From contig CP108521.1 in the NCBI GenBank assembly GCA_035999765.1, positions 10,416,001-10,480,000 on the forward strand: a DNA stretch of 64,000 nt. The letters run 5' to 3'. Made by a program: the position numbers and the translations under genes. This stretch comes from Streptomyces sp. NBC_01231 (GTDB taxonomy: Bacteria > Actinomycetota > Actinomycetes > Streptomycetales > Streptomycetaceae). Shown here piece after piece: positions 41,748 through 44,622 of this stretch (positions are counted from its first letter, which is position 1; every line of letters starts with the position of its first letter). Under the pieces are notes generated by a model, which did not search any database, was not told the DNA's origin, and saw nothing but the letters and a program-made list of their open reading frames with translations.

Positions 41748-42059
41748 CTCGAAACCGGGCATGAGGGTTGACCGTCTCTGCGCCGTGGCTGATTGCATCC
41801 CGGAGCCACGGCAACTACCGGGTGTTGCCACAACTGGCGGGAGTGATCGCGTCGAGCGGCCCGGTCATGGTGTTCGCAGCGCGGTCATCGCGCTGTCGCC
41901 GGTGATCCTTTCGTACGAATCGGTGGCAGCCCGGATCCAGAGCTCGTTTGGCGGCGAAGGGCTGCTGTCCGAGCCCGCGACCTGCTGCGCGAGTGGCTGC
42001 CGCGCGGCAGCTGGACGGGTCCGGCGGCCACGCCGCTCGGCGACTGGGCCGGGGGCGTG

Positions 42060-42506
42060 TCATTGCCGATTTCTCCACGTCGCGCAGCCAGGTGTGGGCG
42101 CGGTCGTCGTCGTAGCGCTAGTTGTGCTGTCCGGACTGTCCGGACAGGTTGGTGACGCAGCAGGTGCTGCACCTGCAGCAGGTGCAGCAGGTGCAGCGGG
42201 ATGGGGGGCATCTGGAGTGACAGGGGCAGTGTGACCAGGCCGAGTTGGTCCCGAGTTGCGCGGGTGACCGCGTCGGGACGGCGCAGCACCAGGTCGGGGG
42301 TGGGGGTGAGTGGCAGCGCGAGGGCGATGGGGGTCTCCGGCGACGACGCGGCGTTCGTGCTCGCGTGTGGTCAGGGCGTCGTCGATCGGGTCGCGCAGGG
42401 GTCCGCGTCGCGAGACGGTGAGGTGTTCGGCGGCCGCGTCGTAGTGCTCAAGGCTCAGCGGGCGTTCGGCGATACCCACGCCAGGAAGCGGGAGTCGGCC
42501 CCGCAT
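42060..42506 (-). pseudogene. LysR-family regulator remnant (effector domain, frameshifted)
   Basis: Only part of the C-terminal effector domain survives, spread over three frames. Pieces in order are HLTVSRRGPLRDPIDDAL, then RRPDAVTRATRDQLGLVTLP, then YDDDRAHTWLRDV, which together follow the usual LysR order and end. The DNA-binding half is missing. At least two frameshifts are needed. A run of CTGCACCTGCAGCAGGTG-type repeats near 42150-42200 may mark one break. Another 350 bases on its downstream side (41750-42059) hold no gene. Confidence 0.65.
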
Positions 42507-43070: not shown

Positions 43071-43329
43071 CGCATCGCCTCGGTGCGGGAGGGGGACTTG
43101 GTCCGCACATGCTCACCCACGTAGCGTCGAGGAACATGGCGCCACGCGCTGGTCGCACGATGTTGTGCCTTCAAGCCGCTGATCCGCGGAAGCACCGGCG
43201 ACGGACGCCGAGACCTTGCCCAGACGAGGGGCCGGACGCCGTGGCAGTGACCGCAGACGAGAACACCCAGGCTCTCCCCGCCACCACCACGGCTCCGGTG
43301 GCAACGCCCCGGACGGCGCGCATCGTCAG

Positions 43330-43408
<79 letters not shown>

Positions 43409-43461
43409 GGGACATCAACATCGACGTCGCGGAGTCCGGCCGCGAAGAAGGCGGCTGCGGT

Positions 43462-44069
43462 CGGCACCCCCGCGTGCGGCGTCCCCCGCTTCGCGAACGG
43501 TCCGCTCGCCGTCGTCGATGTCGAAGACGGTCAGGTGCTGGCGTACGGCGTCGGCGGCCTACTGCTGAACGTGCCGGCCAAGTCCCTCCCCTCCCTGGTC
43601 GACTGGACCTGAAGGAGGCGAAACAGGGTCAGCCGCGCATGTCCGGGCCGGGTAAGGACGCCGACCCGTTGCTTGTACTCACTGAGGCCGCGCTCGAGCG
43701 CTACGGCCTGCCCGTGACGCTCACCGAGGAGGAGCGGCTCGCCGGGCGGCTCCCGGAGGGGCACAAGGTCATCAAGCAACTGGCGCGCCCGGAGTGGAAG
43801 CTGACGAAGCGCGGGTGCGGACCGTGGGCGCGGATCTACCGTCCCGCGCAGAGCTCGGAGCGGGCCTGCGTTCAGCTGTGCATCCCCTCGTGGAACGCGC
43901 TCGACACCCGGCACTGGGCGAGGCGGCGCAGCTGCCGCCGGCGGACCTTGCCCGGCTCCTGGGTGCCTACGCGTCGAGGGTGATGACGCCCCGCGGGTCG
44001 ACGGCCGTGACCGGGCTGGAGTTGATGACCGCCTGCCATCCGCCGACCCGTGCGTCCGAGCCGGTATGA
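43462..44069 (+). pseudogene. Telomere-associated protein Tap remnant
   Basis: Three frames together give a stretch that looks like the N-terminal half of Streptomyces Tap: ANGPLAVVDVEDGQ and NVPAKSLPSLVDW in one frame; KQGQPRM, DPLLVLTEAALERYGLP, LPEGHKVIKQLARPEWKL and CGPWARIYRP in the next after a shift near 43608; then LARLLGAYASRVMTPRGST and VTGLELMTA in the third after a shift near 43916. Intact Tap is about 740 residues; only some 200 remain. The end overlaps the tpg-like ATG. It lies upstream of tpg, the normal tap-tpg order. Confidence 0.75.
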
Positions 44070-44622
44070 GCGTGTTCGGGGAGGACCTGGAAAAGGCGGT
44101 ACAGCGGGCGTTCACGCGCCCGGTCCCCAAGACGGCCTGCGCGCAGATGCGATATCTGGTCAAGCAGCTCAAGGGCACCAGGGCCGTCGCCCAGATGTTG
44201 CGGATCTCCCAGCGCACCGTGGAGCGCTCTGTGAAGGACCAGATCAAGAAGCCCCGCCCGGACCTCGCGGCCCGACTGGAGACCGAGGTGAAGAAGCGGT
44301 GGCAGCCACAGATCCGGGCCAAGGCACGGCAACAGGCGGCGACCACCGGCGGCATCGTCATCGACGCCCGCGCCCGCATCGGCTACACCGCGCCGATCGG
44401 CTCGACCGATGAGGATCGGATCCGGAACCTGACCGTGGCCCTGCCGCCGCAGTACGCTGCCCGCCTCTTCGACGCCCAGCAGGCCGGCACAACGACCAGC
44501 TCCCGCAAGAGATCGCCGCCGAAGGACCCAAGGAGGTCTACTTCCAGGACGGCGGCCGCCGCGCCGGAAGTCTGGAGGAAGTCCGCTTCACCGACATCGA
44601 GCACTTGGAGTTCGACCTGTAG
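44066..44622 (+). pseudogene. tpg: Telomere terminal protein Tpg, frameshifted
   Basis: The first 140 codons read as Tpg: EDLEKAVQRAFTRPVPKTA, QMRYLVKQLKGTRAVAQ, SQRTVERSVKDQIKKPRPD, TTGGIVIDARARIGYTAP and LTVALPPQYAARLFDAQ. At about 44489 one base is missing, and the frame drops into nonsense. The frame that starts at 44491 then restores NDQLPQEIAAEG, EVYFQDGGRR and FTDIEHLEFDL to a TAG at 44620-44622. Together the parts give the usual length of about 185 residues. Tpg caps the ends of linear Streptomyces replicons. A one-base sequencing error must be excluded. Confidence 0.88.

Follow-up and report, generated by a model that had tools for sequence, protein, structure and literature searches.

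The genome assembly of Streptomyces sp. NBC_01231 is a single contig of 11,338,389 bases, and the stretch analysed here (the window, 64,000 nucleotides) corresponds to chromosome positions 10,416,001-10,480,000. Between 43250 and 44622 of the window, on the plus strand, lies a broken archetypal tap-tpg operon in which gene order and strand are kept; 877,767 bases separate the end of the tpg relic from the right chromosome terminus. Tap binds the telomere 3' overhang, and Thr114 of Tpg primes the filling-in of the chromosome end. The operon has the following features (window positions):

43250..43609, plus strand: tap, first frame; NF047542 profile 79-196, 66.8 bits; the frame breaks after ~43608
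43331..43408, plus strand: (CCGACA)13, a perfect hexanucleotide repeat in the tap linker; Tandem Repeats Finder, 13.0 copies, 100% match
43609..43926, plus strand: tap, second frame; NF047542 profile 197-302, 165.6 bits, E 2e-48
43917..44069, plus strand: tap, third frame; NF047542 profile 300-347 (match 43917-44060), 77.4 bits
44064..44066, plus strand: deletion junction; 1.14-1.17 kb gone in comparison with 8/8 intact operons (blastn, L205-L211 and L218)
44066..44494, plus strand: tpg, first frame, codons 1 to ~143; NF047541 220.5 bits (cut-off 90), E 1.6e-65
44479..44622, plus strand: tpg, second frame; NF047541 positions 139-183 (match 44479-44619), 42.1 bits; regular stop TAG 44620-44622

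The matches to NF047542 and NF047541, which far exceed chance, assign the remnants to Tap and Tpg in their usual order, as the earlier note had proposed; both point to the nearest chromosome end. The note's description of Tap as truncated and twice frameshifted does not go far enough: the homology starts at 43250 and not at 43462, and both the N-terminus and the 3' half of the gene are gone. What is left amounts to ~39% of the profile in three frames (profile 79-347 of 695), so that the pieces fall short of the full length and of the Tap family cut-off of 600. The missing regions are the N-terminal HTH part (profile 1-78) and the 3' half (profile 352-695). In the linker, the hexanucleotide repeat reads as repeated Thr-Pro, an expansion that L205 and L209 lack in their intact Tap. 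The third frame terminates, in translation, at a TGA overlapping the ATG of tpg, and the loss of ~1.15 kb took away the second (3') half of tap along with its stop codon and the intergenic stretch up to the tpg start codon. Both flanks of the deletion are 81-87% identical in nucleotides to the eight intact operons of relatives, and the junction sequences were inspected for five of these eight. Pfam and PHROGs held no model matching the relic pieces.

The tpg gene is better preserved. Its first frame shows 83-87% identity to intact Tpg (tblastn), and start ATG, Thr114, Asp115 and stop are retained. A single frameshift near 44480-44494 interrupts what would be one open frame of ~185 codons, and the C-terminus follows in another frame up to the regular stop; the earlier note had described Tpg as complete save for one missing base. 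The Thr114-Asp115 pair is present in 38/38 intact Tpgs as well as in the window tpg; it is essential according to the passages of PMC3572947 used here, with Thr114 as the priming residue.

To date the decay, dN/dS was calculated with the relic pieces aligned separately. For tpg codons 1-139 the mean was 0.229 between relic and intact genes and 0.243 among the 24 intact genes, and private amino-acid changes numbered 3/136 in the relic and 0-2 in each intact gene. The tpg piece after the frameshift gave 0.322 versus 0.370 among intact genes, with 2/32 private changes (intact 0-2). The three tap pieces gave 0.230, 0.190 and 0.129 versus 0.287, 0.235 and 0.274 among 8 intact genes; private changes amounted to 3/49 (intact 0-2), 4/104 (0-8) and 0/48 (0-3). 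As dN/dS of the relic is no higher than among intact genes, the pair was under normal constraint for nearly all of its history and its breakage is recent. The tap-tpg pair thus died recently and was functional until then.

The tpg frameshift could also be an assembly error, leaving tpg as a working lone gene, a reading we regard as distinctly unlikely. Constraint as in intact genes, the kept start, Thr114, Asp115 and stop, and technical sequence left on the left end of the contig are all compatible with such an error. However, the private changes in tpg codons 1-139 slightly exceed those of any of the 24 intact genes, Tap is undoubtedly destroyed with no other canonical Tap at the family cut-off, and the copies of the 76.6-kb terminal repeat differ at just 3 sites, though they were possibly polished together. 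With half of tap lost, tpg would have no operon partner even if it were intact, and a functional lone tpg still requires tap (PMC3572947, in the passages used here). The suggestion of a working second copy is not supported, half of tap being gone and no intact first canonical copy having been found.

The Tpg family profile was run over the whole chromosome and gave 18 matches at E up to 10, of which 7 were above the cut-off; six of these are parts of broken or partial genes and one is a divergent protein, denoted Tpg2. Outside the window, the following were recorded (chromosome positions; all from the Tpg profile):

112,477-114,208, minus strand: tpg remnant in two pieces, left arm
10,852,680, plus strand: tpg remnant with two in-frame stops
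10,861,836, plus strand: partial tpg
10,986,892, plus strand: partial tpg
11,076,837, plus strand: Tpg2, complete, open and divergent; 119 bits

The NF047541 search found no intact canonical Tpg in the 11.34-Mb chromosome. A weak match at 489,136 (33.8 bits) had no tblastn match at 1e-3. The left-arm tpg is interrupted by inserted DNA (112,846-114,010) that by eye resembles an IS630-type transposase. In all five remnants and in Tpg2, transcription runs towards whichever chromosome end is closer. With the Tap profile, only Tap2 (described below) and the window pieces exceeded 60 bits, and no other canonical Tap in the chromosome reached the family cut-off. The second tap-tpg pair that the earlier note proposed to look for is hence missing in canonical, intact form, the only pair being the divergent Tap2-Tpg2 of a Tn7-like cassette. 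In a sample of 60 relatives, 28/36 same-genus genomes had a Tpg above the cut-off, their best copies scoring 248-309 bits.

The left-arm, 10.862-Mb and 10.987-Mb remnants are 91-93% identical to one another, and the window tpg is 74-78% identical to them; the 10.853-Mb remnant shows 59-61% identity to those it aligns with, save for one short piece at 66%. These identities indicate three dead lineages, made up of the window gene and the four further remnants in both arms.

Such diversity is in line with a reading in which an arm exchange or a linear plasmid brought in an operon that had no use from the start and decayed, as has been put forward for lone tpg pseudogenes generally, the change of telomere being unrelated; we consider this possible but not likely. 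The remnants are three lineages and not copies of one gene, and horizontal transfer is the likely source of tpg pseudogenes according to the passages of PMC3572947 used here. The flanks of the relic are also mosaic: a 19.9-kb flank query gave matches only in pieces of 1-3.5 kb, and none spanned the relic, among the matches listed (best one or two places per genome). With the relic DNA itself as query, intact-type genes were found in 286/392 same-genus genomes at E 1e-20, and no genome except NBC_01231 itself spanned the deletion junction among the matches listed. Against an unused acquisition stands the lack of plasmid maintenance genes among the neighbours scanned. Of 54 ORF calls in the window (relic pieces counted in), the family scan covered 21; these look chromosomal (SpoIIE phosphatase, transporters, oxidoreductases, GH5 cellulase, protein kinase), and no plasmid maintenance family was found among them. 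In addition, redundancy and disuse by themselves leave the total absence of intact canonical Tpg unexplained.

The chromosome termini form a 76.6-kb inverted repeat with 3 differences before its boundary (76.9 kb with the diverged margin). At the left end, bases 1-62 (L035:1-62) are technical sequence, probably a nanopore adapter, which is also present in plasmid records of E. coli, Salmonella, Borrelia, Acinetobacter and Streptomyces. The terminal 400 bases (L035:63-460 and the end of L036) hold hairpins with the 3'-strand loops GCCA, GTCA and ACCA. The same loops are found at contig ends of the genomes G124 C2, G076, G307 and G220 and on the S. laculatispora plasmid NZ_CP120993.1, whereas G252 and G399, whose ends are archetypal, show GCA loops and the end of G031 shows CTTG. 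A search with the G252, G399 and G031 ends found no archetypal telomere on the right 942 kb and the left 360 kb at E 1e-4. The archetypal GCA-loop telomere expected for functional archetypal end-patching is accordingly not seen in this assembly, from which the outermost nucleotides may be absent. The telomere DNA matched 11/392 genomes, NBC_01231 among them, and in 7 of the other 10 (G220, G124, G307, G076, G378, G384 and G414) the match was at a contig end. The chromosome ends are of a non-archetypal telomere class.

Palindromes of telomere type had been expected beside the relic; they were looked for, and no telomere-like hairpin array adjoining it was found. A hairpin-richer stretch at window positions 41877-42165 was rejected as a telomere remnant because its loops are mixed and it overlaps a short GCAGCAGGT repeat. 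Another hairpin-richer stretch, near the 10.862-Mb remnant, resembles a transposase gene by eye. The four further tpg remnants and the non-archetypal class of the present telomeres support a history of end replacement; the former end, integrated linear plasmid or arm exchange of the earlier note may each have been the source of the relic.

Intact homologues of tap and tpg occur in the chromosome only in a cassette 261 kb from the right end, identified by profiles:

11,068,951-11,077,382 (L040:3948-12385): TnsC, TnsB and TnsA (minus strand), Tap2 (plus), TniQ (minus), Tpg2 (plus)

A telomeric transposon has one transposon end sequence, and the telomere is its other boundary. At 11.07 Mb, Tn7-like genes stand beside tap2 and tpg2, the gene content looked for in such an element. 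The scores were 115.4 bits for TnsA-like (cut-off 110), 32.4 for TniQ (27) and 26.1 for Mu-transpos_C (21.7); TniB, at 21.0 bits, is slightly under its cut-off of 22.4, and Tap2 scored 590 bits against the Tap cut-off of 600. The gene order is repeated in G220, G378, G414 and the S. laculatispora plasmid NZ_CP120993.1, a plasmid reached independently by the telomere DNA search and the Tpg2 search. Further Tn7-like gene sets or remnants were seen at 124,650-129,000 in the left arm, at 10,633,179-10,635,236 and at 10,990,639-10,992,452, the last ~3.5 kb from a tpg remnant.

A Tpg2-type protein (>100 bits) was present in 4/7 genomes whose contig ends carry this telomere (G220, G124, G378 and G414) and in 0/66 controls (best 85.7 bits), the controls being non-random, picked for few contigs, and the 100-bit line having been set after the scores were known. 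Fisher P for this pairing was 3.2e-5, and 1.6e-4 for 4/10 when three internal telomere matches were included. No Tpg2-type match was found in G307 and G076 of the same class, and G384 had an archetypal-level Tpg match only, with an intact archetypal Tap. The Tpg2 of G220 is frameshifted. At the positions of Thr114-Asp115, Tpg2 has Phe-Cys in NBC_01231; the S. laculatispora protein has Phe-Pro and that of G220 Phe-His. In the more distantly related proteins of G124, G378 and G414, Ser/Thr-Asp is retained at the priming site. The chromosome thus yielded no protein whose canonical priming site is intact. As Thr114 and Asp115 are absent from it, Tpg2 may be something other than the cap that rendered the archetypal pair superfluous.

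Beside Tpg2 (L040:13668-16330) is a conserved pair of genes encoding an HTH protein of 207 aa and a protein of 680 aa, also found in G220, G124 C2, G307 and the S. laculatispora plasmid. We considered the pair as an alternative cap and keep it as a lead only, the 680-aa family being common (539 proteins; 56 plasmid records). In profile comparison this family is unrelated to Tap (probability 1.6%), and no informative solved relative of the 680-aa protein was found. Members occur on plasmids of Cutibacterium, Micrococcus, Clavibacter and Curtobacterium and on pSCO2, and the family is possibly a linear-replicon protein.

Terminal proteins might also come from a plasmid missing from the assembly and act in trans, the redundant chromosomal copies decaying with or without a telomere switch. 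An assembly made of one contig leaves room for such a plasmid, and strains with tap and tpg solely on a linear plasmid are described in the passages of PMC8743542 used here. Yet an archetypal plasmid pair is not obviously fit for the ends of NBC_01231, which are non-archetypal, and the assembly includes no plasmid that would lend positive support. We consider supply in trans unlikely.

Together, these data make it probable that a switch of telomere type ended selection on the archetypal tap-tpg pair and left a recently dead operon. In such a course of events, the chromosome ends would first have been replaced by a different telomere class, probably one carried in by a telomeric (Tn7-like) element or a linear plasmid; deprived of its substrate, the archetypal pair would no longer have been under selection. 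Tap would then have lost its N-terminus and, through the ~1.15-kb deletion, its 3' half, and the tpg frameshift would have arisen at the same time or later. Since no archetypal telomere remnant was found and no relative among the matches listed shares the locus, we infer, and do not observe, both the order of events and the former position, namely that the switch would have come before the decay and brought it about, and that an end of this chromosome would once have been served by the operon. Because strains with archetypal ends often carry tpg pseudogenes too (PMC3572947, passages used here), a switch is not necessary to account for one relic.

A wider proposal extends this probable switch to serial telomere takeovers. 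The three canonical lineages would all have died in turn, and a Tn7-like telomeric element would now own the ends. Tpg2, having lost the priming Thr114/Asp115, may take part with TniQ in target choice, and priming of the ends may fall to a terminal protein unlike the known Tpgs. We put this forward as speculation and hold it to be rather doubtful. Terminal proteins are regarded as essential for linear Streptomyces chromosomes, yet there are linear chromosomes without any of the known ones. The chromosome of NBC_01231 makes two questions testable: what primes its ends, and whether telomere maintenance can pass to mobile elements so that the host's own genes decay.

Hsieh et al. (Science 2025, 387, eadp1973) reportedly describe telomeric transposons, in which Tn7-like and telomere genes are combined in linear bacterial genomes. 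The 11.07-Mb cassette of NBC_01231, known here from its genes, looks like such a transposon; the window relic itself is none. Pseudogenes of tpg and telomere switching are both already known, and the relic is of such kind. In the passages of PMC3572947 used here, tpg pseudogenes are frequent in Streptomyces and are attributed to horizontal transfer, and the window likewise has a broken tpg in a chromosome arm. The ones tested there were lone tpg genes on linear plasmids, whereas in the window a tap remnant is still joined and Thr114 is kept; unlike the case of those pseudogenes, the NBC_01231 chromosome is entirely without an intact canonical copy. PMC7205883 describes switching of telomeres by plasmids within a Streptomyces population, the type being replaced and an atypical tap-tpg set gained; the type II set there has a truncated Tap pseudogene that is similar to the window relic. 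The new loops in that population are CTTG or GGA, whereas NBC_01231 has GCCA/GTCA/ACCA together with a TnsABC-TniQ cassette; the passages of PMC7205883 used here make no mention of transposons. According to the passages used of PMC8743542, chromosomes with Sg2247 and Sg13350 telomeres are linear without detectable Tap, Tpg, Tac or Tpc, and their common loops, compared by description, are GGA, GAA and GTA as opposed to GCCA/GTCA/ACCA here. Next to these systems, NBC_01231 presents archetypal genes that were functional until recently and then died, a replacing telomere class that can be named, and few candidates left for the cap.
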